A stretch of DNA of 15,519 nt, from the NCBI GenBank assembly GCA_003242115.1, contig QBMP01000076.1, positions 1 to 15,519 of the forward strand, in the 5' to 3' direction. The DNA comes from Phormidesmis priestleyi (GTDB lineage: Bacteria > Cyanobacteriota > Cyanobacteriia > Phormidesmidales > Phormidesmidaceae). The notes below the pieces were generated by a model, which was not told the origin of the DNA, searched no databases, and saw only the letters and a list, made by a program, of their open reading frames with translations. Below are positions 231 to 14,961 of the stretch, piece after piece (position 1 is the first letter of the stretch; each line of letters opens with the position of its first letter). A program made the translations under genes and the position numbers.

Positions 231-1562
231 CTACTCATTCATATTCTTGTAGGTAGCAACGGCTGACGGTGAAATCCGATTGAGGTAGCGGAAAATCCAG
301 TATTTGAAGACGGTATCTAAAATAACGGGGAAGGTAGCGATGAATAGAAAAATAAAGTTTCGGTTCGCGGGCAGTCCTAAATGAGAAGCCATGCCCTCTA
401 GCAAAACCTCCCAACCATGCGGCGAGTGAAAGCCCACAAAGGTATCAGTGAAAAGAATGATAATGAAGGCTTTGGCGCTATCGCTGAGGCCATAGACAAG
501 CTCGTCGATAAAGGCTTTGAGGGTTGCGACTTTTTCTTTGCAGCTAGTGAGCAAAAGCACGAATGTCAGCACCGTTACCGCATCCGCAAAAACATTCTGA
601 ATGGCACCGGCGCTACGCTGCCGGTATTCTTCTTCAATGTCAACGGCTTTTTGCCTGACCCGTTTTTCAATTTCTTGCTCCCCAATTTCAGGGGCTTTAC
701 CAATTAGCACTTCAAATCGAAAACGCTCTTCGTACTGCTGAAGCTCATGCAGCGCATCTTCTTCCATTTCTTCATTCAGGAAGACGTCGGCTTGAGTGCT
801 GTCGCGGCTGTAGGCAACGAGGGGGCTGAAGATGAAATTTTTGCTAAGGTATTGGGCCAATAGCGGAATGATAATTAGCTGCAAGACAAAGGTAATCGCA
901 ACGGTTGTTTGCGTTTTGGAGCTGCGAAAGTTGCGCACAACCTCAACTTCCGCGTCAGGATCTAAGTCTTGTTTGATGCGGTCTACGGTTCGTAAAATGG
1001 AGCGGGGTAGAACGCTGGTGCGACTGTTGAGAGCTTCGTTGGAGGTTTCATCAGCCGGAGTAGGGCGATCGCCAGATAGTCCAATCGGCTTGCGAGTTTG
1101 AATTTGGCCAAGCGCAAAAACAGGCTGGGCAAAAATTGAGGGTCGCTGATAGCGATCTGTGATTTCGTCAATGAGCTGGAGCTTGCGAAAGAAAATCGCT
1201 GGGCCATTGAGCTGATTGAGGGGAACATCGTCTGGTAGGGAGCGATCGCGCTGATCGGCTAGCCCACTGCTGCTAAGCTCTGTTGCCGTTGGCAGGTACT
1301 CTGAACTGCTGGCCTTAAATTCGGCCATTCGCCTTTTGATGATCTTGAGATTTTTGCTGAGTTCTTGATCTAATAGACGATAAGCGCTGCGGCTGTAGTT
1401 GCCGTAGCTCTCAGAAATCGGCTGACCATCAAAGTGCTTGTCTTCAAGCTGACGAACTTTGAGGGCGGCTTCATAGGCCGAATCAAGCGCTCGGCTGGGC
1501 GTTTTTGAAAACCACTGCCAAAGCTGGCCAAACAGCCCAAACCGTTGCGAAGAGTTTGTCAT
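231..1562 (-). CDS. pxcA: PxcA/CemA-family proton extrusion protein
   Basis: This 443-residue membrane protein matches the cyanobacterial PxcA family, related to chloroplast CemA. The family is needed for light-induced proton extrusion and supports CO2/bicarbonate uptake, in the cytoplasmic membrane. The N-terminal half (about 1-215) is hydrophilic and holds the family-type segment around residues 25-80, rich in Tyr, Arg and Lys. The C-terminal CemA domain has four hydrophobic stretches at about 219-238, 325-340, 363-378 and 402-420. A charged, coiled-coil-like Glu/Arg-rich loop lies at 262-318, between the first and second. The protein ends in SPSAVATYKNMNE, the usual CemA/PxcA-type tail, so the C-terminus is complete. 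Length is normal for PxcA. The ATG start has no clear Shine-Dalgarno. It follows the distal end of the acyl-transfer operon after 236 bp and probably has its own promoter. Family assignment is from recognition of the sequence. Confidence 0.9.
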   Translation of the reverse strand: MTNSSQRFGLFGQLWQWFSKTPSRALDSAYEAALKVRQLEDKHFDGQPISESYGNYSRSAYRLLDQELSKNLKIIKRRMAEFKASSSEYLPTATELSSSGLADQRDRSLPDDVPLNQLNGPAIFFRKLQLIDEITDRYQRPSIFAQPVFALGQIQTRKPIGLSGDRPTPADETSNEALNSRTSVLPRSILRTVDRIKQDLDPDAEVEVVRNFRSSKTQTTVAITFVLQLIIIPLLAQYLSKNFIFSPLVAYSRDSTQADVFLNEEMEEDALHELQQYEERFRFEVLIGKAPEIGEQEIEKRVRQKAVDIEEEYRQRSAGAIQNVFADAVTVLTFVLLLTSCKEKVATLKAFIDELVYGLSDSAKAFIIILFTDTFVGFHSPHGWEVLLEGMASHLGLPANRNFIFLFIATFPVILDTVFKYWIFRYLNRISPSAVATYKNMNE

Positions 1563-1798: not shown

Positions 1799-3685
1799 TT
1801 AGGAGCGCTGACAGGATTGCTCCCAAATCAGCTTTTTCTCAATCGGCTGAGGTTTGCCAGGAGCGGCGGTGCGCTCATCCATGAAATAGACCTTGATGTC
1901 TTTGAGCGGGTAGCCACGGCGATCGCTCTGCTGACACATATAGTTGCCATAGCTAGGCAGCACCTTTTGGCCAACATGACGATTGAGATTGATGTAAAAG
2001 GTGCGCCACTGCATGTTTTTGTAGAACTGGGCGCGATCGCCCAAACTAGGTTTCTCAAACCGAATCGACTGCTGCGGCTTCAGCACGTTGATTTCGTCGC
2101 CAGTCAAAGAGGTGCCCGTAATCACATGCCAGCCATCATCAGTGGGCGGGCCTGGGGCAAAAATGCTCCAGCTTTGATCGAGCCTAGTGACTCTGCCAAC
2201 CCAGTCAAGTCTTTGAGCCGTGCGGCTAGTTACGACTCGGCGTACCAGCTGCACCGCAGGCTGCGGGCTATCTGCAAACGCAGGAATACTGACAACGTTG
2301 CGGACATTCCACATAAAAGCAAGCGCCAGCAGCAATAGCGCTAATGCACTCAGCCAGCCAGGATTTTTGACCGTAAGCGGCTTGAACTTGAAGGGTTTGG
2401 TAAAGCGGCCCGCAATTTTGCGGTGAGTGGCAATCCACTCGTAAAATCGGGTGCCGACGCTCATCAGCGGTTTCCAGCGCAGCAGGGGCGCAAAGCCCCA
2501 GAATACGGGCGAGAGGCTAACAACGTAAGCAATTCCTTCAAATTTGTAGTGGTGCTGACCTTGCCAATCGACAATCACCCATGAATTTTGGCGCTCCATT
2601 GCCTGATGAATTTCTGGGATACTTTGGGCGGTGGCCAAAGGCGTGTGCGGCAACACGAGCAGCATCCGAATCAAATACACCACCTTTTTGCAGAAGCCGC
2701 AGTCAGCATCGTAGAAAATTTTGAGGCCAGTGCGCGCGAAGCCTTGCGGCTGAGATCCGTAGACTTTTTGGCTTAAAAATTCCCATGCTGAGGTAGGGAT
2801 AAAAGCCAGCCAGGTAACGATGCTCAAAGCTGGAAAAATACCGAGGTTGAGCGTTAGGCCAAAGCCTGCATGAAGGCTAATAAATAAAGCGACGGCAGTC
2901 AGGCGGCAGGCATCGTTGCGCCACGGCGACCAGATCAGCAGTGGGCCTACCCATTCCAGCACCAGGGTTACAAAGGTAAATATTGTCAGCAATGGGCCTA
3001 GATTCAGCAAAAAATGGCCCAGCGCTGTCACGTACTGGTCGTAGCTAAGGGCATAGTAAACGGCGCTGCCGTCGGGCCACCAAGTAGTGCTGGTCGTTTT
3101 GAAAGCCGCTGAGAAAATGTAAATAAAGCACTGTTGAGCCATCAGCGCGAGCGTGGCTCCAGATAATATCCGCAGCGGGACGGGGCGGCTAGCGGTATTC
3201 ATGGCTCTATCGACTGAATAGGCTGCGCCTAAAGGCAAAAACATTGCCCAGAACATAATCGCTCTGAGGACATCATCAGCGGCGAAAATGAGCAGCGGGT
3301 TGCGGTTCTGCATAGAAATAAGCAGCGCCCACGAGGCAATGACGGCCAGCCGAGAATGGTAGCCGAACAGCATTGCCACCGCAAAAACAGCAGCGCTTAA
3401 AAAGAGCATCCCTTGAAAAATAGGCGCACCGCTCAAGGTATGAATAGTCCAGTAGCCCGGTCTGATCAAGCCATCGTTCAAGACCGATCGCGGCAGCACG
3501 CCCGCATCCGTGTAGTGAGCAGTTAAATCGCCAAACCGCGTCCATAAATCGCTGAGCAGCACCAGCGCTAAGCCTATTCTGAGCAGAGCAAGCGATCGCA
3601 CATCCAAGCTATAGCGCTCTAAAGACTGATACAGTGCGCCCAGAAACGGATAAGAGAGGCTCTTTTTTTGAGGTTCAAAAGTCAT
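1799..3685 (-). CDS. HTTM membrane protein fused to DCC thiol-oxidoreductase motif
   Basis: This 628-residue protein has two recognisable parts. Residues about 25-305 are a multi-helix membrane region of the HTTM type, the horizontally transferred transmembrane domain related to vitamin-K-dependent gamma-carboxylase. Evidence is the RSLALLRIGLALVLLSD start, the NRNPLLIFAADDVLR segment at 128-141 and repeated hydrophobic helices. Residues about 322-430 carry a DCC (DUF393) thiol-disulfide oxidoreductase-like domain with FYDADCGFCKKVV at 324-336; the motif residues are D326, D328, C329 and C332. A further helix (about 444-460) and a soluble C-terminus follow, containing LDQSWSIFAPGPP (502-514), seen at the end of other HTTM proteins. 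HTTM-DCC fusions occur in other bacteria, and their reactions are unknown to me. It is the last gene of the operon, 44 bp after the flavoprotein gene. A redox role in the membrane is inference. Confidence 0.85.
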   Translation of the reverse strand: MTFEPQKKSLSYPFLGALYQSLERYSLDVRSLALLRIGLALVLLSDLWTRFGDLTAHYTDAGVLPRSVLNDGLIRPGYWTIHTLSGAPIFQGMLFLSAAVFAVAMLFGYHSRLAVIASWALLISMQNRNPLLIFAADDVLRAIMFWAMFLPLGAAYSVDRAMNTASRPVPLRILSGATLALMAQQCFIYIFSAAFKTTSTTWWPDGSAVYYALSYDQYVTALGHFLLNLGPLLTIFTFVTLVLEWVGPLLIWSPWRNDACRLTAVALFISLHAGFGLTLNLGIFPALSIVTWLAFIPTSAWEFLSQKVYGSQPQGFARTGLKIFYDADCGFCKKVVYLIRMLLVLPHTPLATAQSIPEIHQAMERQNSWVIVDWQGQHHYKFEGIAYVVSLSPVFWGFAPLLRWKPLMSVGTRFYEWIATHRKIAGRFTKPFKFKPLTVKNPGWLSALALLLLALAFMWNVRNVVSIPAFADSPQPAVQLVRRVVTSRTAQRLDWVGRVTRLDQSWSIFAPGPPTDDGWHVITGTSLTGDEINVLKPQQSIRFEKPSLGDRAQFYKNMQWRTFYINLNRHVGQKVLPSYGNYMCQQSDRRGYPLKDIKVYFMDERTAAPGKPQPIEKKLIWEQSCQRS

Positions 3686-3729: not shown

Positions 3730-4974
3730 CTAGATAGAATTAGCTTTCAAAAAATTCAATGATTCGCTGAGCGCTCGTCGAGCGACTTTCACCTGATGGC
3801 GGCGAGTCGGCATCCGAAAAATGTACACGCCCCGACGGCTTAAAGCTGCAAGCCTACCGCCAAGCGTGATCCCAAAGCTCCACAGCCCAGCGTCGCCAAT
3901 GCCCAGCGTGATCATGTCACCAAGATGCAGATAGTTAAAAGGTTTGGGGCTTTTCCCTTGGGTGAGCGCGGCCAAATTTGCGGCGACTCTATTGGCCGCC
4001 TGAAAAGCTGCCTGAGCGGTGTTAGGAGCAGGCTGGTGATGACGGCCTCTAACATCAGCACTATCGCCAAGGACAAACACATTGTCATGAGAAATGAGTT
4101 GGAGCGATCGCCGAGTCAACCGCTGACCATAGTCATTTTCAGGCACCCCTTCGCCTAGCCAAGGACGAGGCTGGGTGCCAACCGCCCATAGGGTAAGCTG
4201 GCTAGGAATCACTTGCTCTGTATTGCCCTGTCGGAGGGTGAGTGTTTTAGCCGTTACGTTTGTGACCAGGGTTTCAGTTAATACGCTGATTTTCCGTCGG
4301 GCAAGGGCGCGTTGAGCCAAGCGTCTGAGCCCTGTGGCAAAGGCTTTGAGAATCGTCGGGCCGCTTTCGATGAGGGTGATTTGAGCGCGATCGCCCAAAT
4401 AATCTGAGACTTTGCCCGCTAGCTCCACACCGCTTGCGCCACCACCTATGATGGTGACTGGAATTGGCATTCTAGGGTTTTTAAGGGGGTTTTCAAAGGA
4501 GAGCGATCGCACCATCTGATCCAGCCTCACCTTAAGTCTTTGAGAATCTTCGAGCGAACGGAAGGTCAAGGCATGTTCCTGAACGCCTGGAATATTGACC
4601 GGGCGACTTTCAGCCCCATTAGCTACCACCAAATAATCGTAGGTGAGCGTTTCACCCTGGCTCGTCGTCACCGTTTGCCGGGCCAAATCTATGGCACTTG
4701 CAGAGGTCTGCTGCCAGCTAATAGAAGTCCCCGCAATCAAACTGCTATACGTCGGTGCAATCTCCCACTCTTTCAGCTCATTGGTAATCAGCTCATACAT
4801 CATTGGGGTAAATAAAAACCGCTCCTTGGGTTCAATCAAGGTGATCCGGCTACGGCGTAGGTGACGATACTTTTGCAGATAGAGCGCCGTATACAAACCG
4901 CCAAACCCACCTCCGACAATACAAATGTGTGGTCGAATTGGCTGAGTATTCTGGGTTGTGAACGTCTGAATCAT
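3730..4974 (-). CDS. NDH-2-like NAD(P)/FAD-dependent oxidoreductase
   Basis: This is a two-dinucleotide-fold flavoprotein of the type-2 NADH dehydrogenase group, which passes electrons from NAD(P)H through FAD to quinones at the membrane. Counting from the chosen ATG (414 residues), the FAD fold ICIVGGGFGGLYTALYL is near 17-33, DYLVVANGAE near 113-122, the NAD(P) fold VTIIGGGASGVELAG near 173-187, LWAVGTQPRP near 262-271 and the second FAD motif VFVLGDSADV near 299-308. Length fits the family. An in-frame TTG at 4998 directly abuts the TAA of the upstream SGNH gene. I prefer the ATG eight codons later because it still precedes the FAD fold by a normal distance, but neither start has a strong Shine-Dalgarno. 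Cyanobacteria have several such proteins (the Ndb group, one of which acts in phylloquinone synthesis), and I cannot tell which this is. Co-transcription with SGNH and HTTM genes is likely. Confidence 0.85.
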   Translation of the reverse strand: MIQTFTTQNTQPIRPHICIVGGGFGGLYTALYLQKYRHLRRSRITLIEPKERFLFTPMMYELITNELKEWEIAPTYSSLIAGTSISWQQTSASAIDLARQTVTTSQGETLTYDYLVVANGAESRPVNIPGVQEHALTFRSLEDSQRLKVRLDQMVRSLSFENPLKNPRMPIPVTIIGGGASGVELAGKVSDYLGDRAQITLIESGPTILKAFATGLRRLAQRALARRKISVLTETLVTNVTAKTLTLRQGNTEQVIPSQLTLWAVGTQPRPWLGEGVPENDYGQRLTRRSLQLISHDNVFVLGDSADVRGRHHQPAPNTAQAAFQAANRVAANLAALTQGKSPKPFNYLHLGDMITLGIGDAGLWSFGITLGGRLAALSRRGVYIFRMPTRRHQVKVARRALSESLNFLKANSI

Positions 4975-4998
4975 CTTATCTGCGCTGCTTTTCAGCAA

Positions 4999-5973
4999 TT
5001 ATTGAGCGGTCAACAAAGGCTTGATCTGGCTGGCAAGCTGCTCTGAGCGGACTTTTCGGCCTTCCGGCTTTAAATGGTAGTGAGTATCAGCAAATAGGGT
5101 GGGCTGAGATTGAATATTGAGCGTCTTTGGATCGATCAAAACAGGCGCGATTTTGCTGAGTTCTTCAGCAGTTTTTTGGATGTTAGACCGAGTTAGCGTT
5201 TCTTCCGCGTTGCCGTAGATCCAAGGCATCGACACAATTAGCTGGCCGCCTCTCGCTTCGACTTCAAATTTGAACTGCGCAATTCGCTGAAGAGCGTGAG
5301 GTGAAACCGGATCGGGAATCGATAACGGCCACCAAGCGCCCTGGCGCAGCTTGGTTTCAGTCGGATCGCCCCGCTTCGTTAGGGGGCCATCGTAATAGCC
5401 TGTAAATTGACCCTCCTCAGTCACATCCACAGCAGCTTTAACAGCCCATCGCAAAGATGGAACGCCCATTTGCAGTGTTTCTAGCGCGAGCTGCTTAGCC
5501 GGGATGCCGCCAAGCGCTGGTTGGCCAGTAGCCACAGCAAACATGCCTGATCTGTCGCCGAAGCCATCTTCGTCAAGCAGCAGCATATATTCAGGAATCA
5601 GCAGCACCGTGTCTCCAGGTTTCACGGTTTTTAAGATGCTAGGCAAAATCACATCTAGCCCGACTGGCCCGTCTAAGCCGAGGTTGACGACAGGCAGATT
5701 GATCGCTTTAGAGAGCACATCGGAATTGATGGTGTAGTGTGCGCCCGACCCGCCTGTGACAATCAGCTTCGGATCAGGTGTTTGGTTAGCGATCGCAATT
5801 TTATTTTCGTAAAGTGATTTGAGCCAATGAGCTTCCCCGCCCAGATACACGTTGTAAATAAAGCCACCGCTCCAAGCCAAAGCGGCCACAGCAAACCAAC
5901 TCAAAAACTTGGGCCGCTTTAGCGCTGGCAGCTTTGAATTTGGCATTTCTAAATTGGGCAGCTCAGTCGTCAT
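4999..5973 (-). CDS. Membrane-anchored SGNH/DltD-like protein, partner of MBOAT
   Basis: This 324-residue protein has one N-terminal membrane segment (about 23-43, after a short basic stretch LKRPK) and a large domain expected outside the membrane. SGNH-type blocks are visible. IVTGGSGAH (71-79) offers a nucleophile Ser76, NLGLDG (97-102) resembles block II, and FADTHYHL near the C-terminus (294-301) provides the Asp/His pair, D296 with H298 or H300. This layout, with a single anchor, early Ser and late D-x-x-H, is that of DltD and other MBOAT-partner proteins such as the AlgJ/AlgX type. Those carry or complete acyl transfer to a glycan. It lies 8 bp after the MBOAT gene, which supports a paired function and translational coupling. 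It could instead be an esterase that removes acyl groups. The exact family is not certain, but the catalytic blocks are clear. Confidence 0.7.
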   Translation of the reverse strand: MTTELPNLEMPNSKLPALKRPKFLSWFAVAALAWSGGFIYNVYLGGEAHWLKSLYENKIAIANQTPDPKLIVTGGSGAHYTINSDVLSKAINLPVVNLGLDGPVGLDVILPSILKTVKPGDTVLLIPEYMLLLDEDGFGDRSGMFAVATGQPALGGIPAKQLALETLQMGVPSLRWAVKAAVDVTEEGQFTGYYDGPLTKRGDPTETKLRQGAWWPLSIPDPVSPHALQRIAQFKFEVEARGGQLIVSMPWIYGNAEETLTRSNIQKTAEELSKIAPVLIDPKTLNIQSQPTLFADTHYHLKPEGRKVRSEQLASQIKPLLTAQ

Positions 5974-5981
5974 AGGAATCT

Positions 5982-7448
5982 CTAGAACTCGAAGTAAATA
6001 AAATCAGCCGGAATATTGGCGGCTAAGAGAATTGTCAGCACCAGCAGAATCTTAGACATCCAGGGTGAGGTCAATAGCTCATATTCACAGGCGCGCTCTT
6101 GCCACACGGCAATGTGTTCTAAAGCAAGAAAGGCAATCGCCAGCCCCAGTGTCACGCCCAATACCAGCCCTTCAGGCGAATTAAACACGCCCACTGCCTC
6201 CATAAAGTGGGTTGGGGAATAGGCCCAAGGCGTTACCAAAGTCACCAGCTTAGCCAAAAGCCGCCGACTGTTGGTTTCCATAAAAAAGAGACAGCCCAAA
6301 ATCACCGCTCCAAATGTCAGCGCCCAAGACACCACCTGAGGCCGCTTTACAAACTGATTGGTCATCTTTGCAAAAGGCCGTCCGGCGTAGCGCAGCAGCA
6401 GCAGCAGCGCCCCGTGATACGCGCCCCAAATCATAAAATTCCAGGCCGCGCCATGCCAAAAGCCCGACAGCGTAAAGGTAATAAACAGGAAAAAAGCCGC
6501 CCATTTTTTGCGCTTGCCCATCAGCGGCAAAAACACATAGTCCCGAAACCAGGTGCTCAGCGACACATGCCACCGTCGCCAAAATTCATTGATGCTTTGA
6601 GAGGTATAGGGCGCGAGAAAATTGATCGTGAGTTTGACACCCATAATGCGCGCCAAGCCCACCGCCATAAAGCTGTACCCGCCAAAGTCGAAATAAATCC
6701 GCAGGGTAAATAGAAAAGCGTAGAACCACACTAGCCAAGGATTTGCGCTCTCGCCAATGCCATCAGAAATGTAGGGCGAAAGATTATCGCCCAACACAAA
6801 TTTCATAAATAGACCCAGCGATAGCCACCGCATCCCGACATCAAAGTTATCGGCGCTGAACTTGAACTTAAAGTCTTGAATTTGAGGCAGCAGCTTACTG
6901 CGCCTTTCAATTGGGCCCGCGACAATCTGCGGGAAAAAGGACACAAAGTTAATGTAGTCCAGCAGCTTCAGAGGCTTTTTACGACGCGCGGTGTACGAAT
7001 CGACCACAAAGGCCACCATTTGGAAGGTATAGAAAGAAACCCCCGGTGGAATCGTTTGAAAGACGGGTAACGGAAAGCTGGCTTGCCAATCGCTAGAAAT
7101 GGGCGCTGCTAACCCGATAAAGTCTTCAATAAAAAAGGTGAGGTATTTGAAATAAGCCAGTACCGCCACGTCAAACACAATAATGGCCGTCGCAATCAGC
7201 CGTGCCTGCTGGCCCTCACGGCGCAGCATCAGGCTCACCATGTAGTAGTTAAACAGGATCTCAAAGAGAAAAACTGCAAAGCTAGTAGGACTAGCATTGA
7301 GAAATAGCAGCAGGGAAAGAGCGGCAATGCCAACGGTGTCGAAGCGATCGCGCCACCAATCAAACCGTTGGCCAAAGTAGCGCACCGTAAAGAACGGCAC
7401 GCTTGTCAGCAACAGCACCCACCAAAATGAAAACTCGGAAAAATTCAA
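5982..7448 (-). CDS. MBOAT-family membrane O-acyltransferase (AlgI/DltB-like)
   Basis: This 488-residue polytopic protein belongs to the membrane-bound O-acyltransferase family, which moves acyl groups through the membrane to acceptors. Family landmarks are IPPGVSFYTFQMVAFVVDSY (133-152), SFFPQIVAGPIER (170-182), the amphipathic re-entrant segment SINEFWRRWHVSLSTWFRDY (285-304), and GFWHGAAWNFMIWGAYHG (329-346) with the invariant catalytic His332. These match bacterial AlgI/DltB-type members, whose length is similar. The start is TTG; it gives an N-terminus (MNFSEFSFWW) of the expected kind just before the first helix, with GAG about 8 nt upstream. It follows the ACP gene after 129 bp containing short tandem repeats and is closely followed by the SGNH gene. 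In Dlt systems the MBOAT takes the acyl group from a carrier protein. In alginate-type systems it takes acetyl groups from another donor. The neighbouring ACP and ligase favour the first, as inference. Confidence 0.92.
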   Translation of the reverse strand: MNFSEFSFWWVLLLTSVPFFTVRYFGQRFDWWRDRFDTVGIAALSLLLFLNASPTSFAVFLFEILFNYYMVSLMLRREGQQARLIATAIIVFDVAVLAYFKYLTFFIEDFIGLAAPISSDWQASFPLPVFQTIPPGVSFYTFQMVAFVVDSYTARRKKPLKLLDYINFVSFFPQIVAGPIERRSKLLPQIQDFKFKFSADNFDVGMRWLSLGLFMKFVLGDNLSPYISDGIGESANPWLVWFYAFLFTLRIYFDFGGYSFMAVGLARIMGVKLTINFLAPYTSQSINEFWRRWHVSLSTWFRDYVFLPLMGKRKKWAAFFLFITFTLSGFWHGAAWNFMIWGAYHGALLLLLRYAGRPFAKMTNQFVKRPQVVSWALTFGAVILGCLFFMETNSRRLLAKLVTLVTPWAYSPTHFMEAVGVFNSPEGLVLGVTLGLAIAFLALEHIAVWQERACEYELLTSPWMSKILLVLTILLAANIPADFIYFEF

Positions 7449-7501
7449 TGTCTTTGCTCTAGCGCAATGGGCCGATTAGGCGATAACTGAGGAGGCTCGA
7501 C

Positions 7502-7540
7502 CGAACCTACAGACCGAGCCTACAGACTGAACCTGCGGCT
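7502..7540. repeat. 13-bp imperfect tandem repeat, three units
   Basis: Units CGAACCTACAGAC (7502-7514) and CGAGCCTACAGAC (7515-7527) differ at one base. A third, TGAACCTGCGGCT (7528-7540), is more diverged. A still weaker fourth may follow. The array sits in the 129-bp spacer between the ACP and MBOAT genes and so lies in the leader before the TTG start of the MBOAT gene. Confidence 0.7.
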
Positions 7541-7577
7541 CGAACTTATTGAGCTTATTACTTATTGCTTGTTGAAC

Positions 7578-7874
7578 TTACAGAGTGACGTCAAATTCTT
7601 CGACCATGTGGGCAGCGGCTTTTTCGATACTGGGGTAGTCCCATAGCAGGGTGGAAGGCAACTCTAGATCAAGCCAGTCTTCTAAGTCACCGACTAGAGT
7701 CACCGCATCAATTGAATCTAGCCCGTAGCGAGTTAGAGGCTGCTTCACATCAATGGTAGTCGGATCAAGCGAGAGCACATCGGCAAGCTGATCAACTAAC
7801 CAAGATTGAATTTTGCTGACGGGCGTAGGTTGCGTTAATGGCTCAGATGCGCTGGGGTTCTGGAGCTGTTGCAT
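7578..7874 (-). CDS. Stand-alone acyl carrier protein
   Basis: This 98-residue carrier protein has the phosphopantetheine attachment motif YGLDSIDAV (50-58), with the modified Ser54. The expected four-helix fold surrounds it: VDQLADVLSLDP before the site, LEDWLDLELPSTLLWDYPSIEKAA after it. The sequence is closer to PKS/NRPS-type stand-alone carriers (LTRYGLDSIDAVTLVGDLE, acidic helix II, LWDYPSI) than to the fatty-acid-synthase AcpP. A polar extension of about 20 residues precedes the domain. It should receive its 4'-phosphopantetheine from the divergent transferase at 12140-12877 and its acyl group from the FAAL upstream in the operon. It sits between the dehydrogenase and MBOAT genes, matching the place of DltC in the Dlt comparison. 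The ATG has AGGAAA about 10 nt upstream. Confidence 0.93.
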   Translation of the reverse strand: MQQLQNPSASEPLTQPTPVSKIQSWLVDQLADVLSLDPTTIDVKQPLTRYGLDSIDAVTLVGDLEDWLDLELPSTLLWDYPSIEKAAAHMVEEFDVTL

Positions 7875-7890
7875 GAGAGTTGGTTTCCTG

Positions 7891-7935
7891 TGTAAAGGGA
7901 TGAGTTGTAAAGGGATGAGCTGTAAAGAATGGAGT
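7891..7935. repeat. 15-bp tandem repeat upstream of ACP gene
   Basis: Three units follow one another. TGTAAAGGGATGAGT (7891-7905) and TGTAAAGGGATGAGC (7906-7920) differ at one base, and TGTAAAGAATGGAGT (7921-7935) differs at four. They fill about half of the 81-bp spacer between the dehydrogenase stop and the ACP start, just upstream of the ACP ribosome-binding site. They could alter mRNA structure or be a replication-slippage scar. Confidence 0.75.
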
Positions 7936-7955
7936 TTGGGAACCGTTTGTAGGCT

Positions 7956-9779
7956 CTAAGTGACCAAACAGGGCGCGGCTATAGCTGGCGCGCGCGATCG
8001 CTGAGCTAGCTGAAACGGCACAATTGAGAACATTTTGTCCGCCTGATGTAGCTGCAAAAGTTCTTGGGCTACGTTTTCGTAGTAGGTGCTAGGGGGCGGG
8101 GTGAGCGATCGCCGAAAGCGAGAAAGCAGCCGATGCAAGCTCAGCACCAGCCATTCACCTTCAGCGAAAAAGCCCTGCATATCTTCGTGATTGCGATTGT
8201 GCATCCACATTAGAATGCAGGCTATAGCCGCATGTAAATGGCAGTACTGCTTGGCGAGTTCAAAGCTCTCAAACGACTGATCGTGGCCATGCTCAAACGC
8301 TGACTGAGTAATCAGCGCATCTTGCGCATTGATCTCTTCTAAAATGACTTTCCCAAGTTCTATCACCTGGGAAAGTACCGCTTGGTTTACAGGCTGACTG
8401 GACATAGACTGACCAGATCCCTGCCAAGCTTCGAGATCAGCTAAAGTGCTCTCCAGCCCCTGCATCACATCGTCAGCCCCTCGGCTAAATAGCTCTAGCC
8501 GGTTAGGCTCGAACGGCGGCAGACTCTGATCGAGTGAAAAGCTCTGAGCCAAGCGAACCTTGAGCGCCGCTAGCTGATCGGGCTTTTGGCGAATCCGCAA
8601 ACGAGCTTTCGCTAGCTGCCGACGCTGCAAAATCAGCGCATGTAAATTCACCACTGAGCTGCCGTCAAACATACTGATGATGGCACTGTCTCGAAGCGCC
8701 TTTTGAAAGACCCCTGAATCGTGCTCATCGCGCATATAAAACCGTGACCCCAGCACGACTGAGGTCTCTTTCATCACCTGTTCTAGCGTTACTGGAACAA
8801 AATATTTGTCCACCGCTGACCAAACGCTGAACTGGTCAGTCGCAACATGAAAACCTCTAGCTGCGCCAATATTTACACAATCGCAAATGAGCATATCCAC
8901 AAAGGCATTCGTCAGCGTGCGCCGCGCGTGGGGCATATCAATCACGGTTTTGCCATAGAGCTGACGATTCACCGCAAAATTAAGCGTTGTGCGCATTGTG
9001 GTATCTGCCGCCCCTTGAGAAAAAGCAGCGCACAGCGCCCGCGTAATTTGAAAACCCTTTAAGCCCAGCTCTAGCCCATGACCTTCCGGGCCTAGCAGCA
9101 TCCTGTCAGGAATAAAGCAGTCACTAAAGCCAATGCCGCTCATATCGGCAGCGCGAATGCCGTGGGTTTTAATCTTGGGCAGGTTGTAATACTGACTCGG
9201 CTCAAGGTATTGTTTCTCCACCATAAATAGCGAAAGCCCTCGATTGCCACCATCGGGATCGGTGCGCGCTAGCACATAAGTCACGCCCGAAATAGTCGCT
9301 CGATTAATTGGCCACTTCTCGCCATTCAGCAAATAGCCGCCTGCAACCTTAGTCGCCGTCACTCCGCCACCGACCAAATCACTCCCATGCTCACGCTCAG
9401 AATAGGCCAAACACATAGCTGTATGGTCTTCACTCATGAGCTGAGAGAGCGTTTGCTTTTGCTCATCGCTGCCTGCCATCCAGGTCAAAAAAGACCAGAA
9501 CAGCGTGGTAAACGCAATCGAGATATTTAGATCGCGGCGAGCTAATACCCGCACAAAGGCCACAAATTCCTCAAAAGATGTGAACTTACCGCCACACTCA
9601 GTCGGAATGTAATAATTTTGCAGACCCCAGCTATACAGCCAAGCAATTTCGTCATGCGGAAACTGCTCAGCTTCGTCTAACTCAGCAGTGCGCTGAAAAG
9701 ACATCAGACTCTCGACCTGATGAGGATTGCCTAAAGCCTGCTCTAACTGCTCTGCGAGTTGGTATTGCGCTAATGTCAT
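7956..9779 (-). CDS. Acyl-CoA-dehydrogenase-like flavoprotein, probably acting on acyl-ACP
   Basis: This 607-residue protein has an acyl-CoA dehydrogenase core (about 1-390) and a helical C-terminal extension of about 200 residues. Core signs are CLAYSEREHGSDL (123-135), the counterpart of the usual A-x-TEP-x-AGSD flavin-binding strand, YLLNGEKWPINRA (149-161), NRQLYGKTVIDMPHAR (271-286) and FDGSSVVNLHALI (371-383). The last aligns with the usual YEGTSEI-type motif, whose Glu is the catalytic base in many members; here it is Asp372. Such enzymes introduce an alpha,beta double bond using FAD. Between a FAAL and an ACP, the likely substrate is a fatty acyl-ACP, as proposed for lipid side chains of ramoplanin-type lipopeptides. 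A strong GGGAGG lies 5 nt before the ATG. The 46-bp gap after the ligase and 81-bp gap before the ACP support one operon. Whether it is a dehydrogenase, an oxidase or has lost activity is open. Confidence 0.88.
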   Translation of the reverse strand: MTLAQYQLAEQLEQALGNPHQVESLMSFQRTAELDEAEQFPHDEIAWLYSWGLQNYYIPTECGGKFTSFEEFVAFVRVLARRDLNISIAFTTLFWSFLTWMAGSDEQKQTLSQLMSEDHTAMCLAYSEREHGSDLVGGGVTATKVAGGYLLNGEKWPINRATISGVTYVLARTDPDGGNRGLSLFMVEKQYLEPSQYYNLPKIKTHGIRAADMSGIGFSDCFIPDRMLLGPEGHGLELGLKGFQITRALCAAFSQGAADTTMRTTLNFAVNRQLYGKTVIDMPHARRTLTNAFVDMLICDCVNIGAARGFHVATDQFSVWSAVDKYFVPVTLEQVMKETSVVLGSRFYMRDEHDSGVFQKALRDSAIISMFDGSSVVNLHALILQRRQLAKARLRIRQKPDQLAALKVRLAQSFSLDQSLPPFEPNRLELFSRGADDVMQGLESTLADLEAWQGSGQSMSSQPVNQAVLSQVIELGKVILEEINAQDALITQSAFEHGHDQSFESFELAKQYCHLHAAIACILMWMHNRNHEDMQGFFAEGEWLVLSLHRLLSRFRRSLTPPPSTYYENVAQELLQLHQADKMFSIVPFQLAQRSRAPAIAAPCLVT

Positions 9780-9784
9780 GAATG

Positions 9785-9790
9785 CCTCCC
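9785..9790 (-). promoter_or_regulatory. Strong ribosome-binding site of dehydrogenase gene
   Basis: GGGAGG on the minus strand sits 5 nt before the ATG at 9779, within a purine-rich leader following the FAAL stop codon. It is the clearest Shine-Dalgarno in the operon and fixes the start. It suggests that the dehydrogenase is translated independently of the broken ligase frame upstream. Confidence 0.7.
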
Positions 9791-9825
9791 TTTTTTAATC
9801 CCTTTCCTTAATCTCTTTTTCAATC

Positions 9826-10842
9826 CTATTGATGGCTTAGCTTTTGCACCAAGGACTCGACCTCGTTTTGCAGACTGCGTACCTTCGCGGTGAGTCGAGG
9901 GTTTTCGCTCCAGTCGGCAAGGACTTCTAGCTCACCTGCCAAAAAGCTCGCTTTACACTTGCGCCGCTGAATTTTACCGCTTGAGGTTTTGAGCACGTTG
10001 CCTGATTTTACGAGGGCCACTGCATACACTTGCAGCTCATGGGCTTCCGAAATAGCCTGACGAATTTCAGCGATTAGCTCCTCAGCCTCTAGGCTCTGCT
10101 GATGCTGCCGCTCAATTTCTTGCACCACAACTAGCTGCTCTTCACCGTCTTCAATAATAGAAAAGCATGCACCGTAATCAGGTCGCATGGCCGGGGCAGT
10201 TTGCTGCACTGTCCACTCAATGTCTTGAGGGTAGTGATTGGTGCCGCGAATAATAATCAGATCTTTGATGCGGCCAGTGATGTAAAGTTCGCCGTTTTGC
10301 AGAAAGCCTAAATCGCCGGTTCGCAGATAGCGCATGGCTCCTTCTTTGGCAATTTGCGCTTCAAAGGTTTCTCGGGTGGCATCGGGCCGTTGCCAGTAGC
10401 CATGCGCAACGCCAGGATCATTCACCCAAATTTCACCAATTTCAGCAGCAGCGCAGCGCTCTAGCGTATCGGGATTGACGATGGCAACACTCGTTTCACA
10501 GACCAAGGTGCCGCAGCTAACGGCTTCTCGAATGTAAGCAGTATTGAGGGTGTCTGCATCAGCTGCCACCACTTTGCCCTGCTCTAGTTCGCTGGCGGCT
10601 AGCTGTAAAATCACGGGCGCTCGGCCAACCGAAGTAGAAGAAACTAGCAGGGTCGCTTCTGCTAAACCGTAAGCGGGCGAAAAGCTTTCCCACTTAAATC
10701 CGTAGTCTGCAAAAGCTGCGTAAAAGTCGCGCATAACTCGCGGATTTATAGGTTCGGCGGCGTTGCCTGCGCTGAGCCAGTCGCTGAGATCTAAGCCTTC
10801 GCGCTGGGCGGGTTTAATGACGAACGCAGAGGTCGTAGGCAA
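9826..10842 (-). CDS. Fatty acyl-AMP ligase, C-terminal part (frameshifted)
   Basis: This frame carries the second half of a fatty acyl-AMP ligase whose first half is in another frame immediately upstream. Numbering is from the first possible TTG (10842), which is likely not a real start because it lies inside the coding sequence of the other half. It holds LDLSDWLSAGNAAEPI (17-32), the adenylation motif YGLAEATLLVSS (58-69), GYWQRPDATRETF (148-160), RTGDLGFLQNGELYITGR (174-191), IIIRGTNHYPQDIE (196-209, the form typical of FAALs) and SSGKIQRRKCK (287-297), with the catalytic Lys290 of the swinging C-terminal domain. Everything up to the stop looks intact. The missing N-terminal part means that it cannot be a full enzyme unless joined. 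A short coiled-coil-like tail (about 312-336) follows. It ends 46 bp before the dehydrogenase gene. Confidence 0.85.
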   Translation of the reverse strand: MPTTSAFVIKPAQREGLDLSDWLSAGNAAEPINPRVMRDFYAAFADYGFKWESFSPAYGLAEATLLVSSTSVGRAPVILQLAASELEQGKVVAADADTLNTAYIREAVSCGTLVCETSVAIVNPDTLERCAAAEIGEIWVNDPGVAHGYWQRPDATRETFEAQIAKEGAMRYLRTGDLGFLQNGELYITGRIKDLIIIRGTNHYPQDIEWTVQQTAPAMRPDYGACFSIIEDGEEQLVVVQEIERQHQQSLEAEELIAEIRQAISEAHELQVYAVALVKSGNVLKTSSGKIQRRKCKASFLAGELEVLADWSENPRLTAKVRSLQNEVESLVQKLSHQ

Positions 10843-11725
10843 AGTTGGGGGCCTGACTGTGGGTGGCTCCGTATTTTTGGATGGCTTGAAGCCAGCGTAA
10901 GGGGCGCTTGACGAAGGCCAGAGGGGCCATGATGTAGCAGGGTGCGCCGTTGTACAGCGGCTGAATCAGCCCTTCTACCAGGCCGTAGTCGTGAAAGTAG
11001 GGCATCCAGGTGACGGTGGGGCCAGTAGGGTGGTAGCCGCAGCCCCTTTGTAAGTAGTCGGAGTGGTGCAGCAGGTTATAGTGGCTGAGCATCACGCCTT
11101 TGGGCGTAGAGGTAGAGCCTGATGTGTATTGCAAGTAGGCCAGTACGTCTTTGTCGATTTGGGGATCTTGCCAGTCTTTAGCCAGGGCTAAATCGACGGT
11201 TTCGGTATCGATCCAGCGCATCGCTGCAAATTCAGGGAAGTCGAGGCCGCTTGATTGAATGAGTTCGATAATGTGGGCGTTGCTTAGAACGATGGTGGCT
11301 GCGGCGTCTTTGATGATTTCGCGCAGTCGGGGCAGGGTGCGCTTCATCCGGCCTGCATCAGGGGGGGGTACGGGAATGGCAATCACGCCTGCGTAAAGGC
11401 TGGCGCAAAAGGCCGCAACGACTTCTATGCCTTGGGGATAGAGCAGTAGGGCGCGATCGCCTTTCGTCTCTTGTTGCTGAAGTAATGCTGCGATCGCGCG
11501 CGCCCACTGATCTAGCTCGGCGTAGGTATAGGCTGCACCTTCTCTTTTGCCATCAACTAAAAACTGGTAGGCCAGATCATTGGGCTGCGTTTTAGCCCGA
11601 TGCTGAAGCAGCTCTATCAGCGTAGAGAATTGAGCACGTTGGTGATGAGTACTGTCTGGGGCAGTTTGGGTTTGGGCAGTTTGAGGCGGAGAATAAACCA
11701 TCGCTAGCAACCGAGAAAGAGTCAA
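10814..11725 (-). CDS. Fatty acyl-AMP ligase, N-terminal part (frameshifted)
   Basis: This 303-residue frame is the first half of a fatty acyl-AMP ligase, which activates a free fatty acid as acyl-AMP and loads it onto a carrier protein. Signs are FSTLIELLQHRAKTQPNDLA (33-52), TYAELD (67-72), the ATP-binding loop YTSGSTSTPKG (200-210), LSHYNLLHHSDYL (213-225), TWMPYFHDYGLVEGL (239-253) and SQAPNFAYDLCVR (290-302), where it stops abruptly at His-TAA. Family members continue past CVR, and here the continuation is in the +1 frame. Joined, the two parts give about 630 residues, a normal length. TTG at 11725 is the first start; ATG at 11701 (codon 9) is an alternative and neither has a clear Shine-Dalgarno. 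It is the first gene of the minus-strand operon. Its place and role match DltA in the Dlt comparison. Treat both halves as one gene, either disrupted or wrongly sequenced. Confidence 0.87.
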   Translation of the reverse strand: MTLSRLLAMVYSPPQTAQTQTAPDSTHHQRAQFSTLIELLQHRAKTQPNDLAYQFLVDGKREGAAYTYAELDQWARAIAALLQQQETKGDRALLLYPQGIEVVAAFCASLYAGVIAIPVPPPDAGRMKRTLPRLREIIKDAAATIVLSNAHIIELIQSSGLDFPEFAAMRWIDTETVDLALAKDWQDPQIDKDVLAYLQYTSGSTSTPKGVMLSHYNLLHHSDYLQRGCGYHPTGPTVTWMPYFHDYGLVEGLIQPLYNGAPCYIMAPLAFVKRPLRWLQAIQKYGATHSQAPNFAYDLCVRH

Positions 11726-12139: not shown

Positions 12140-12877
12140 ATGAATGATGACATTCAAGTTTGGCAAATTCCGCTTCAGGTGAGCTTAAAAACAGTTGATG
12201 GCTATTTAGCCTGTCTTGGCGAAGATGAAATCTTAAGGGCTAATCGCTTCAAGTTTCCTGATGATAGGCGTCGTTTTGTGGTGGCTAGAGGCGCTTTACG
12301 ACATCTGCTAGGCAACCACATAGGGAAAGCACCGGCTGGCATCGAGTTCGGCTACGGCGAATACGGTAAACCTTTTGTCAGACAAGCCTTTACAGCACAA
12401 TTGGGGCCAGCGGGTTCTTTGGATATTCTGCCTCACGAGGCTTTTCAATTTAACCTTTCTCACTCAGGTGACCTGGCCGTATGTGGGCTGGGTCGTCATC
12501 GAAAAATAGGCATTGACATCGAAAAAATTAGGTCTATCGGTCGGCTAGAAATGATGATGGAGCGCTGCTTATCAGCGGCTGAACAAGTACTGGTGAAAGC
12601 GGCGCGGCTAGAAGATCAATCCCAACTGTTCTTAGAATATTGGACTTGTAAAGAGGCTTACTTGAAGGCGACTGGACTAGGCTTAACTCAATCTATGCAG
12701 AGAGTTGAGATAGCAGCTTCGCGACTGGTTCACGTTCCAGACGATTGTGCAGAGGGCTGGCAGCTGCATTCAATAGCGGTGCCTGAAGGCTATATTGCGG
12801 CTTTGGTTGTAGCAGGGACAGCAGACACTAGGACAGACGTTCCAGTTAAGGCGTGGTCGCATCCTGATTTCGCCTGA
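12140..12877 (+). CDS. 4'-phosphopantetheinyl transferase, Sfp/HetI type
   Basis: This 245-residue enzyme should transfer the 4'-phosphopantetheine arm of coenzyme A onto the conserved Ser of carrier proteins, making holo-ACP in the cytoplasm. Motifs are EILRANRFKFPDDRRRFVVA (30-49), FGYGEYGKPF (70-79), FNLSHSGDLAVCG (104-116), GIDIEKI (124-130) with the Mg-binding Asp126 and Glu128, and LEYWTCKEAYLKATGLGL (165-182) with Glu172. Length and motif order are those of Sfp-type enzymes, called HetI-like in cyanobacteria. The ATG is preceded by GAGG with 7-nt spacing. It is divergent from the acyl operon that encodes a carrier protein, so that ACP is a natural client. Cyanobacteria often have a single such enzyme serving all carriers, so it may also be the general one. 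Its last 32 bp overlap tail-to-tail with the next gene. Confidence 0.93.
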   Translation: MNDDIQVWQIPLQVSLKTVDGYLACLGEDEILRANRFKFPDDRRRFVVARGALRHLLGNHIGKAPAGIEFGYGEYGKPFVRQAFTAQLGPAGSLDILPHEAFQFNLSHSGDLAVCGLGRHRKIGIDIEKIRSIGRLEMMMERCLSAAEQVLVKAARLEDQSQLFLEYWTCKEAYLKATGLGLTQSMQRVEIAASRLVHVPDDCAEGWQLHSIAVPEGYIAALVVAGTADTRTDVPVKAWSHPDFA

Positions 12878-13931
12878 TCATAATGACGGATTTGACCGGG
12901 CGTTGAACGGGCTGGCCTTCTGCATCTAGTTTGCCCAGGTAGGTTTGCCCGTCGTAGTACAGGGAGGATGAGCTGCCGCCGTCCAGGTTGAGCAGTTGGG
13001 TTGCGCCGAGAGAGGTGGCAAATTCGGTGAGGTCAGCTAGCGTCATGCCAGTTGCGATTTGACTATTGGCTTGACTGGTGGCTTGATCGTTGGCTTGATC
13101 GTTGGGCAGGTTAGTGCGCTGGGAAACCATGATTAGGAGCAGGGTGCCATCGGGGCGAATCGCTAGGGCACTTCTGGCATTGGGCTGCACACTGCCAATG
13201 GCATCGCGGATTAGGGTGCCATTCTCGTCGCCATTTTCATAGTCAGTGAACGCCTCGGTGAAAGCGGTATCTTTTGGCAAAAGCTGCGGGCCAGCGCCGA
13301 GAGCTGTTTCAGTTTCGCAACCGCTAGGTGAAACGGCATCGTGGGGCGCAATATCATAGCGAATTTGGGCTGAACCAGGGTCTAACCCTTGGGCTAAACC
13401 CTGGCAGCGATAGACGCGAAACTCAGAGCGGTTCAAAATTTGGGGTAGATAGGCTTGAAGATTGGGGTTGCCGGTCAGCCTTTCGTTGTTAGCCGGATCG
13501 CCGACTGATTGGCCTTGAGAGATGAGATGCGAGGTTGTTTTGCCGTTTTGTGGGTCAAAGAAGCCGCCATTGATGACGGCTAGGGCGTTATTTTGCTGGG
13601 CGAAGTCTGTAACTGTTGCGAGGTTGGGGGTGGTTGCGATCGCAACCGGCACACCAACGTCAACGCTCACCACATGAACAGTAGCTTGCGGCAGATCGTA
13701 TGTCTGATAGTGAGTGGAAGGTTGGCTAAGGGACACAGATAAATTATCTGACGAATGATTGGATGAATTACCTGAAGTCAGCGGGTTTTGAGGCGGATTA
13801 GCCTTTTCAAAAACTGAGCGGGTTCTAGCAGGTTTAGCTAAGTACAAAAAGGCGACGCCAGCACCCAAGGCAATCCCAAAGACAAGTGGCATCCACAAAT
13901 AAAGTGCTTTGAAGTTTTTATCCGGCAGCAT
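12846..13931 (-). CDS. Phosphodiester glycosidase family (NAGPA/DUF2233) envelope protein
   Basis: This 361-residue protein has an N-terminal membrane anchor or signal segment (about 10-32), a low-complexity Ser/Asn-rich linker (about 45-72) and a NAGPA-like domain. Domain motifs are ALAVINGGFFDPQNGKTTS (116-134), RDAIGSVQPNARSALAIRPDG (242-262) and the signature LLNLDGGSSSSLYYDG (313-328). Relatives include the human enzyme that uncovers mannose-6-phosphate tags and bacterial proteins linked to exopolysaccharide or wall-glycan turnover. The reaction here is unknown. An in-frame 12-bp tandem repeat gives a (N/T)-(D/S)-Q-A run at about 277-291. The ATG overlaps the end of the upstream glycosyltransferase by 14 bp, so translation is probably coupled. 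Its 3' end overlaps the convergent transferase gene. A role outside the cytoplasmic membrane on a glycan is inferred from anchor and neighbours. Confidence 0.85.
   Translation of the reverse strand: MLPDKNFKALYLWMPLVFGIALGAGVAFLYLAKPARTRSVFEKANPPQNPLTSGNSSNHSSDNLSVSLSQPSTHYQTYDLPQATVHVVSVDVGVPVAIATTPNLATVTDFAQQNNALAVINGGFFDPQNGKTTSHLISQGQSVGDPANNERLTGNPNLQAYLPQILNRSEFRVYRCQGLAQGLDPGSAQIRYDIAPHDAVSPSGCETETALGAGPQLLPKDTAFTEAFTDYENGDENGTLIRDAIGSVQPNARSALAIRPDGTLLLIMVSQRTNLPNDQANDQATSQANSQIATGMTLADLTEFATSLGATQLLNLDGGSSSSLYYDGQTYLGKLDAEGQPVQRPVKSVIMIRRNQDATTP
13059..13106. repeat. In-frame 12-bp tandem repeat within glycosidase-family gene
   Basis: Four 12-bp units on the plus strand run TTGACTATTGGC, TTGACTGGTGGC, TTGATCGTTGGC and TTGATCGTTGGG, without gaps. 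Because 12 bp is four codons the frame is kept, giving the tetrapeptide-like run N-D-Q-A / N-D-Q-A / T-S-Q-A / N-S-Q in a loop before the signature motif. Confidence 0.8.
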
Positions 13932-14961
13932 TGCGTACTTTCTCGCTGTAATCTTTGGGGCGCATTTGGCGAAAGCCTTGAAAGGCGAGCTGTCTGACCC
14001 AGGCTGGTAAGTACGATAGCACTTGGCCGACTCTGGCTCGATTTGAAAGGGTACTAGCGTTTTTAAGCTCGGTGATCAGGGCTCTGCCTCGCTGGGTTTC
14101 GCCTTTTTCTATCAGACGCATGGCTAGCACCTGCTTCAGGCCGTGCAGCTTAGTGATCCGGGCCTGCTCTAGATCAGGGCGCTCAGGAAAGCGGTAGCTC
14201 GCTAAGCAAAAAGATTTGGCGGTGAGGAAGTGGATATCTTGTCTGAGGCTGGTTTGACCACCGTGAAAGCGGTATTCCATCAGGCGTTCGGGAATGAAAT
14301 AGGCGCTTTGATTTGCCAGAGCGCAGCGCACTAATAGATCAAAATCCTCGCAGCCATCGGCCTCAAATCTCATGAAGTCTACGGCCTGTAGGCTGCTTTT
14401 GCGAAAGAGCGATGAGCCGACCTGTAAGCTTTGGTGCAAGAAGGTTTCGGATAGCAAATCATCAATCACACCGCGCCCTAGCCGATCTTTTCCCCATTTA
14501 GCTGAATTGGCGTCCGTGGCGGCAAAGTCGCGTTCGTTGCGGGCGTTGATAATCCAGTGATCTGAGCAGACAAAATCGACCTGCGGCTGATGATCCAGAA
14601 TGGCGACGGCTTTTTCTAAAAAGGTGGGGGTGAGAGCGTCGTCGTCATCGAATTTGATGAAGTATTCGCCTTGGGCCGCTTCGTAGCCAGAGCGCATGTT
14701 GCGGCTGCGCTGAATGTTTTGCGGGTGGCGCAGATAGCGGATGCGCGGATCTGACCACTGGCTAACGACGGTAGAAGTATGGTCAGGCGAGGCATCGTCA
14801 CAGATGATCAGCTCAAAATTTGAGTAGGTTTGACTGAGAACACTGGCGACGGCATAGGGCAAAATATCAGCGCGGTTGTAAGTAGGGATGCAAACGCTGA
14901 CTTTAGGTGAGGGAGGAAGCGATGGCTGGGAGAAGGAAACGGGAGCAGGTTCATTAGACAC
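13918..14961 (-). CDS. Glycosyltransferase family 2
   Basis: This 347-residue GT-A glycosyltransferase should transfer a sugar from a nucleotide-sugar donor in the cytoplasm, probably for a surface polysaccharide or glycolipid. The catalytic domain begins at about residue 20. It shows VSVCIPTYNRADILPYAVAS (21-40), SQTYSNFELIICDDASPDHT (43-62) with the nucleotide-binding Asp pair D55/D56, and EYFIKFDDDDAL (99-110) with the metal-binding acidic motif. VCSDHWII (131-138) and ADGCEDFDLLVRC (about 200-212) follow as acceptor-side segments. No membrane helix is evident. The start is GTG; no ATG occurs before the catalytic core, so this choice is reasonable. The stop overlaps the ATG of the next gene by 14 bp. 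Acceptor and sugar cannot be told from sequence. Confidence 0.9.
   Translation of the reverse strand: MSNEPAPVSFSQPSLPPSPKVSVCIPTYNRADILPYAVASVLSQTYSNFELIICDDASPDHTSTVVSQWSDPRIRYLRHPQNIQRSRNMRSGYEAAQGEYFIKFDDDDALTPTFLEKAVAILDHQPQVDFVCSDHWIINARNERDFAATDANSAKWGKDRLGRGVIDDLLSETFLHQSLQVGSSLFRKSSLQAVDFMRFEADGCEDFDLLVRCALANQSAYFIPERLMEYRFHGGQTSLRQDIHFLTAKSFCLASYRFPERPDLEQARITKLHGLKQVLAMRLIEKGETQRGRALITELKNASTLSNRARVGQVLSYLPAWVRQLAFQGFRQMRPKDYSEKVRNAAG

Follow-up and report, generated by a model that had tools for sequence, protein, structure and literature searches.

The window analysed here is the whole 15,519-nucleotide contig (C413) of a 4.78 Mb, 92.8% complete draft genome of the cyanobacterium Phormidesmis priestleyi. 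It carries genes for a fatty acyl-AMP ligase (FAAL), a member of the acyl-CoA dehydrogenase family (ACAD), a stand-alone acyl carrier protein (ACP), a membrane-bound O-acyltransferase (MBOAT) and a protein of predicted SGNH fold. It is near certain that this set forms one functional unit, and it probably encodes a carrier-protein-fed MBOAT-SGNH system that moves a fatty acyl group across the membrane onto an extracytoplasmic acceptor. The functional assignment builds on the gene set, its conservation and co-inheritance, predicted folds and motifs; from these we infer the reactions, the acyl chain and the acceptor.

Co-inheritance and gene order

The distribution of the set was followed in an evenly drawn phylum sample of 386 genomes from 143 genera, in which the best 3–5 first-look candidates per genome were scored and misses are possible. 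Orthologs of FAAL, ACAD, MBOAT and SGNH occur in an identical 18 of the 386 genomes and in 12 of the 143 genera, seven of the genomes belonging to one genus (g31). For ACAD, 19 genomes match at E <= 1e-100, 18 of them at no less than 1017.7 bits (1017.7–1162) and one at 687; for SGNH, 20 match at E <= 1e-10, 18 at 419 bits or more, one at 50 and one in broken pieces. MBOAT is matched in 18 genomes at E <= 1e-100, and FAAL in 17 at E <= 1e-270, plus the window genome with its split gene; the last cut-off was chosen after a score gap, orthologs reaching at least 1077 bits and others at most 861. The hypergeometric chance for any two orthologs is 2.6e-31 by genomes and 1.1e-17 by genera, shared ancestry not being corrected for. 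The arrangement is far beyond chance.

Ten of the 18 carriers (the seven g31 genomes, G105, G111 and G143) have members at separate places, yet keep all of them. In the single contig of G312, FAAL lies at about 905 kb, MBOAT-SGNH at about 976 kb, ACAD at about 4190 kb and a further partner, HTTM-DCC1 (see below), at about 414 kb. The genome G385 retains broken HTTM, NDH2, SGNH, MBOAT, ACAD and FAAL genes in the usual order (L152, G385:C1:436500-456400, 6078-16137); no ACP piece was recognised at this locus, and no intact members were found in the genome among the families searched. These remains are most simply read as a loss of the whole set together. The preliminary description of this DNA had proposed that the FAAL/ACAD/ACP set and the MBOAT/SGNH pair belong together, which is borne out by the orthologs of FAAL, ACAD, MBOAT and SGNH in the same 18 genomes, also when they are unlinked. 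For a pathway that has yet to be characterised, so sharply shared a distribution gives unusual certainty that the genes form a functional unit.

Two further genomes were considered as carriers and rejected. In G157 the SGNH match reaches only 50 bits and stands beside a distant MBOAT, while in G229 ACAD scores 687 bits, FAAL at most 651 bits and SGNH has no match at 1e-10. The G229 locus (L083, 4101-17722) contains FAAL, fatty acid hydroxylase, FAAL, ACAD, ACP, aminotransferase and short-chain dehydrogenase/reductase (SDR) genes, of which the FAALs, ACAD and ACP are distant from those considered here. About 4 kb on, in the opposite direction, a distant MBOAT ending in FIYFQF neighbours a 320-aa protein, which has the SGNH-like motifs GSS..N and DGIH and no SGNH-profile match. 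Judged by such motifs, G229 is possibly a distant relative; if this is real, the two modules would have come together there independently.

The SGNH profile yielded 64 named loci, in which frames were labelled with the window proteins. MBOAT is present in 51 of these, ACP in 39, ACAD in 38, a type II NADH dehydrogenase-like (NDH2-like) gene in 36 (at least 200 bits), HTTM in 35, FAAL in 31 and a 4'-phosphopantetheinyl transferase (PPTase) match in 7. A search for the five-gene order in cyanobacterial genomes, suggested at the outset, recovered the full set on one strand and in the same order in 31 of the 64 loci. Of the 46 loci whose upstream stretch is 6.3 kb or longer, 29 have it. Wherever all five stand in one stretch, no alternative order was seen. 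The set occurs in Microcystis, Anabaena and Nostoc species, Leptolyngbya, Okeania and other genera.

Among the 17 loci that have enough room but lack the full order are those of Microcystis, Okeania and Hydrococcus. A genome-wide search was made for 25 of the 26 loci lacking a full ACAD gene, L020 being excluded for an ACAD fragment at the contig edge. ACAD was found elsewhere in 23 of the 25, three copies being broken or cut (G388, G396 and G400); the two misses are the genomes of L053 and L055, both metagenome-assembled. In Okeania, Hydrococcus and others, the relocated ACAD again has FAAL and ACP as neighbours, joined by MBOAT if the stretch extends that far. Two other regroupings are ACAD-ACP-MBOAT-NDH2 separate from SGNH-HTTM (L066/L156 and L068/L157) and FAAL-ACAD-ACP-MBOAT separate from SGNH-NDH2-HTTM (L097/L010 and L098/L063).

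The regroupings bear on an alternative that we consider unlikely, in which two modules serve one pathway with no direct hand-over of the acyl group. Here, FAAL, ACAD and ACP would make a cytoplasmic lipid or lipidated metabolite, and MBOAT/SGNH would decorate this product or its glycan outside, from acetyl-CoA or another acyl-CoA. The Microcystis genomes favour it: their relocated ACAD is accompanied by ACP alone, and ACAD-ACP is apart from MBOAT-SGNH. However, the ACP and MBOAT genes adjoin, 19–305 bases apart, in 33 of the 39 named loci having both, and L066 and L068 keep ACAD-ACP-MBOAT together though FAAL and SGNH have moved away. In addition, no other product-forming enzyme is known as a constant partner, the tests across the phylum sample having covered only the families named here.

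A second alternative, which is very unlikely, takes FAAL, ACAD and ACP to make a starter for a polyketide synthase (PKS) or lipopeptide synthetase elsewhere in the genome, and MBOAT/SGNH to be an unrelated envelope O-acetylation pair. FAALs are described as starters of PKS and non-ribosomal peptide synthetase (NRPS) lines in PMC11837247, and the window genome does contain ketosynthase matches on four contigs, of which two regions are type I PKS. The one on C38 is KS-AT-DH-PPTase; the one on C396, in several frames, is KS-AT-ACP-KR-DH plus a domain of the nitronate-monooxygenase type. Yet both regions are on other contigs, the C396 PKS brings a carrier domain of its own, and the draft genome yielded no condensation domain. 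Nor would an unrelated MBOAT/SGNH pair be expected in exactly these 18 of 386 genomes. Nothing seen links the PKS regions to this locus. The initial remark that the window holds no PKS or NRPS module agrees with the scan of ten window proteins (Pfam and NCBIfam), none of which contains one; the accompanying caveat, that such an enzyme elsewhere in the genome might use the acyl-ACP, partly applies, given the two regions themselves, and is weakened by their location, the separate carrier of one and the missing condensation domain. The PKS regions lie at L092 2810-7465 and L093 4835-13243; one adjoins a gene for an HlyD-type protein and the other is in several frames.

The locus and the proposed acyl route

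The set is read from the minus strand, in the transcription order FAAL (two frames), ACAD, ACP, MBOAT, SGNH, NDH2-like and HTTM-DCC1, followed by PxcA. The features are as follows.

10814..11725, minus: FAAL N-terminal frame, with AMP-binding domain (Pfam AMP-binding 149.6 bits; ortholog score 545 bits)
9826..10842, minus: FAAL C-terminal frame, in another frame than the N-terminal one (Pfam AMP-binding and DIP2-like AMP domain; NCBIfam FAAL models; 560 bits)
7956..9779, minus: ACAD, presumed acyl-ACP dehydrogenase (three ACAD Pfam domains)
7578..7874, minus: stand-alone ACP with YGLDSI phosphopantetheine site (Pfam PP-binding 58.7 bits)
5982..7448, minus: MBOAT acyltransferase (His294 and His332 invariant)
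5985..6002, minus: FIYFEF C-terminal hexapeptide of MBOAT, a match to FXYXXF, with Tyr485 (FIYF[EDS]F in 51/51 MBOATs)
4999..5973, minus: SGNH-fold protein (predicted) with a single N-terminal hydrophobic helix, Ser76 in GSG[AV]H and ADTHYHL near the C-terminus
3730..4998, minus: NDH2-like flavoprotein (Pfam Pyr_redox_2)
1799..3685, minus: HTTM/SdpB-like membrane protein with a DCC1-like thiol-disulfide domain, CGFC (Pfam DCC1-like; SdpB below cut-off)
231..1562, minus: PxcA
12140..12877, plus: HetI-like PPTase, divergent from FAAL (Pfam ACPS 62.1 bits; NCBIfam HetI 183.6 bits, cut-off 370)

All five genes named at the outset are thus present on the minus strand at 4999-11725 (Pfam and NCBIfam; SGNH by predicted fold), but the set is not limited to them, since the NDH2-like and HTTM-DCC1 genes also belong to the conserved neighbourhood. 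At 12846-14961 the window further encodes a putative phosphodiester-glycosidase-like and a putative glycosyltransferase-2-like protein, both of which are also present upstream of the L002 locus.

In the proposed route, the PPTase would arm the ACP, and FAAL would adenylate a free fatty acid and load it onto this carrier. ACAD would oxidise the acyl-ACP, most simply to its 2-enoyl form, and the NDH2-like protein would pass the ACAD electrons to quinone. The acyl-ACP would reach MBOAT at the inner membrane face, where the enzyme, with His294 and His332, would shift the acyl group to Tyr485 in the FIYFEF peptide at its C-terminus. The SGNH protein, anchored in the membrane, would then take the acyl group on Ser76 and esterify an extracytoplasmic acceptor (a glycan, lipid or other alcohol). 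The roles of the MBOAT-SGNH pair follow the mechanism given in PMC12148441; direct transfer from ACP to MBOAT, unsaturation of the acyl group and the identity of the acceptor are what we infer for the present set.

The first enzyme had been described as a FAAL rather than a D-alanine ligase, and this is well founded. The DltA model TIGR01734 scores 56.3 bits on the N-terminal FAAL frame, far under its cut-off of 559.85, and is outscored there by FAAL models; FAALs are among the best NCBIfam models for the ligase. Its nearest solved chains are 7r7f/7r7e, with solved FAALs among the closest. By sequence, therefore, the AMP-binding fold appears nearer to FAALs than to acyl-CoA ligases.

The motif YG[LV]DSI is present in every ACP compared, except that of L083. 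A C-terminal tail with Trp and basic residues was recognised by a crude pattern in 28 of 39 ACPs, for example KGWGGLWNKISGS; tailed ACPs include many of those of L008-L045 and others. Such a tail could fit membrane docking, which would be another way of bringing the ACP to the membrane. The HetI-like PPTase is a candidate activator of the ACP.

All 51 MBOATs that score at least 400 bits in the named loci end in FIYF[EDS]F, in agreement with the FXYXXF acyl-shuttle motif as defined in PMC12148441. His294 and His332 are present in 20 of 20 rows of alignment A4. The nearest solved fold is DltB, while the score against the DltB equivalog model TIGR04091 is 194.7 bits, below the cut-off of 375. The shuttle motif and the histidines support transmembrane transfer. 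The original idea of an acyl group passing from ACP through the membrane is partly supported: it stands firmly where it joins the two groups of genes (18 of 386 genomes), and its transmembrane part is supported by the motif and histidines.

Other MBOATs were also encountered. The window's own genome has a second one at L096 854-2287 (C180), with a run of N near its end that leaves the C-terminal motif unreadable. A second MBOAT, ending in FLYFQF, was found in 15 copies near the main locus (L008, L009, L010, L012, L013, L014, L015, L020, L021, L028, L041, L055, L056, L060 and L062). In all 15 loci it is accompanied by at least one member of one further family, of which one protein was scanned and matched DUF1574 below the cut-off. 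These may constitute a second, different acylation pair.

For the SGNH protein, neither Pfam nor NCBIfam gave a match, and a sequence search of solved structures with its profile gave nothing credible. For this reason, the SGNH fold was assigned from a predicted model. Foldseek on this model lists DltD (6o93, 7dxm) and PatB (7trr, 7tjb), while in the VIA structure listing DltD and PatB are absent among the 50 matches listed. Ser76, Asp296 and His300 are conserved in 30 of 30 sequences, and His298 in 29 of 30. A separate protein of predicted SGNH fold with conserved Ser, Asp and His thus accompanies MBOAT, either His298 or His300 being a candidate for the catalytic His.

Redox partners and points against the proposed transfer

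At the usual place of the catalytic Glu, ACAD has Asp372 in an FDGS motif, in 38 of 38 copies in named loci and invariantly in alignment A2; the solved ACAD relatives shown have Glu where this ACAD has Asp. We take the position to correspond to Glu376 of MCAD. The protein weakly matches MbtN (NCBIfam), and its C-terminal part (ACAD at 7956-9779) extends about 220 residues beyond the ACAD domains. The electron transfer flavoprotein (ETF) alpha subunit is part of the usual ACAD electron acceptor. It was found in none of the 18 carrier genomes by a search that matched 10 of 14 control genomes, and the NDH2-like protein is therefore the best candidate for passing ACAD electrons to quinone. Its closest solved chains are YjlD and other NDH-2-type enzymes. 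The gene is near MBOAT when SGNH is elsewhere (L066, L068) and near SGNH when MBOAT is elsewhere (L010, L063), and is downstream in 34 of 57 loci with room; it is often a partner of the set.

HTTM-DCC1, in contrast to this frequent partner, is a constant one. In a draw of 372 genomes, its profile matched 24 at 1e-60, among them the same 18 carriers at 859–1104 bits; the other six reach at most 517 bits, and two carriers have a second copy, scoring 594 in one and 567 in the other. The 18 orthologs were picked from the 24 matching genomes by this score gap. Cys329 and Cys332 are invariant in alignment A5. The HTTM/SdpB-like label rests on a weak SdpB match below cut-off, and the HTTM-DCC1 profile found no solved structural relative.

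Taken together with the redox partners, the set may tentatively be seen as an undescribed envelope-acylation pathway, in which a carrier and not CoA would feed a long acyl group, oxidised while bound to that carrier, into an MBOAT that has its own Tyr shuttle. A quinone redox module would be coupled to this: in cells that have no ETF, ACAD electrons would go to the NDH2-like protein, and HTTM-DCC1 would act on the acceptor or product in a step that depends on quinone or thiol. In a further alternative, the set would O-acylate an exported protein or peptide, with HTTM-DCC1 as a peptide-modifying or quinone-coupled enzyme, a role that we assume for HTTM proteins. The inheritance of HTTM-DCC1 with the set and its weak SdpB similarity would agree with this. 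Nevertheless, it is very unlikely; no conserved small substrate gene was recognised among the neighbour families, which were clustered from frames of about 85 codons or more, plus labelled ones.

The FAAL gene of the window is split. Its first description as a FAAL holds, but it is not a single open frame: the assembly has two overlapping frames, and tblastn of intact relatives against the window DNA places the break near residue 313–317 of the intact L002 protein. Of 42 further frames labelled FAAL (with some genomes represented twice, and three weak scorers, in L015 and L083), 41 have 591–667 aa, and the remaining one, in L042, is cut by a contig end. A programmed frame change seems less likely, given that no break divides the gene in the relatives. 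The split may plausibly be an assembly error; it may also be real gene decay. Elsewhere in this genome, at L095 (1255-3280 and 3800-5045), a run of N disrupts a gene that is presumably transketolase-like, and a ketosynthase gene is broken close to a base that could not be called; these broken genes are signs of a rough draft assembly.

Several observations weigh against the proposed transfer or against its operation in this genome. Firstly, co-inheritance shows shared function and not the order of steps. G170 and G215, of the window's own family, are without the set, and in L045, which has no FAAL in its stretch, the SGNH gene is inverted. Secondly, individual parts of the route raise doubts: other frames lie between ACP and MBOAT in 6 of 39 loci (L027, L033, L041, L042, L058 and L059), 23 of 57 loci with room have no NDH2 downstream, the window's own ACP is without the Trp/basic tail, and ACAD has Asp instead of the catalytic Glu of acyl-CoA dehydrogenases. 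Thirdly, owing to the split FAAL the system may be inactive here.

A fourth point concerns the meeting of carrier and acyltransferase. In 50 of 51 MBOAT copies, 35 residues separate the two His motifs (the remaining copy did not fit the pattern), while DltB has about 44 by a hand count from the alignment, making the MBOAT about 9 shorter. Compared with the DltB-DltC contacts named in PMC11035591, the missing residues cover most of the DltC-contacting helix. Because most of this segment is absent, the ACP cannot dock quite like DltC, and direct feeding of MBOAT by ACP is a presumed step. The absence favours the two-module alternative with an acyl-CoA donor, as do two published statements: non-Dlt MBOAT-SGNH pairs use acyl-CoA donors, pathways other than Dlt having no carrier protein (according to the authors of PMC12148441), and the acylation of a hexose on a cyanobacterial peptide has been ascribed, as a proposal, to a putative MBOAT (PMC13122637).

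Comparison with known systems

Searches of open-licence papers, judged by titles and abstract openings, gave none that describes such a set and none that combines an acyl-AMP ligase with an MBOAT, which is weak evidence of absence; the passages of PMC10143770 and PMC4594306 consulted contain nothing on this gene set. One cyanobacterial likeness is to FAAL-ACP loading sets (jamaicamide, cylindrocyclophane and olefin synthase, as given in PMC11837247), which share the FAAL with its cognate ACP and, in jamaicamide, a desaturase. They differ in that the window has no PKS or NRPS module and an MBOAT/SGNH pair follows instead. PatA/PatB and related O-acetylation pairs are alike in having an MBOAT with C-terminal FXYXXF and a separate SGNH protein. 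Unlike these, the present pair comes with a dedicated carrier, ligase and dehydrogenase, the carrier being part of the conserved set.

The mycobactin proteins MbtM, MbtN and MbtL are presumably another likeness, with a FAAL, an acyl-ACP dehydrogenase and an ACP acting together. The mycobactin product goes to a siderophore in the cytoplasm, and that set is not known to include an MBOAT or SGNH protein, unlike the one described here.

A parallel in logic is Dlt (DltA, DltB, DltC, DltD and DltX), which likewise combines an AMP-forming ligase, a stand-alone carrier, an MBOAT with catalytic His and an SGNH-fold partner. The label 'Dlt-like' of the preliminary description can be kept for this logic, but not for membership: the ligase is not DltA but a predicted fatty acyl ligase, the MBOAT falls short of the DltB model (194.7 against 375 bits) and the DltC-contact segment is mostly missing. 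In addition, an ACAD has been added, HTTM-DCC1 is a partner, and the shuttle peptide is fused to the MBOAT, whereas in Dlt it is on DltX (the frames listed for the window were those of 70 codons or more). If the proposed function is true, Dlt would be joined by another MBOAT-SGNH pathway that uses a carrier protein, this one for fatty acyl groups. It would predict an acylated surface molecule in these cyanobacteria and point to specific residues to test.

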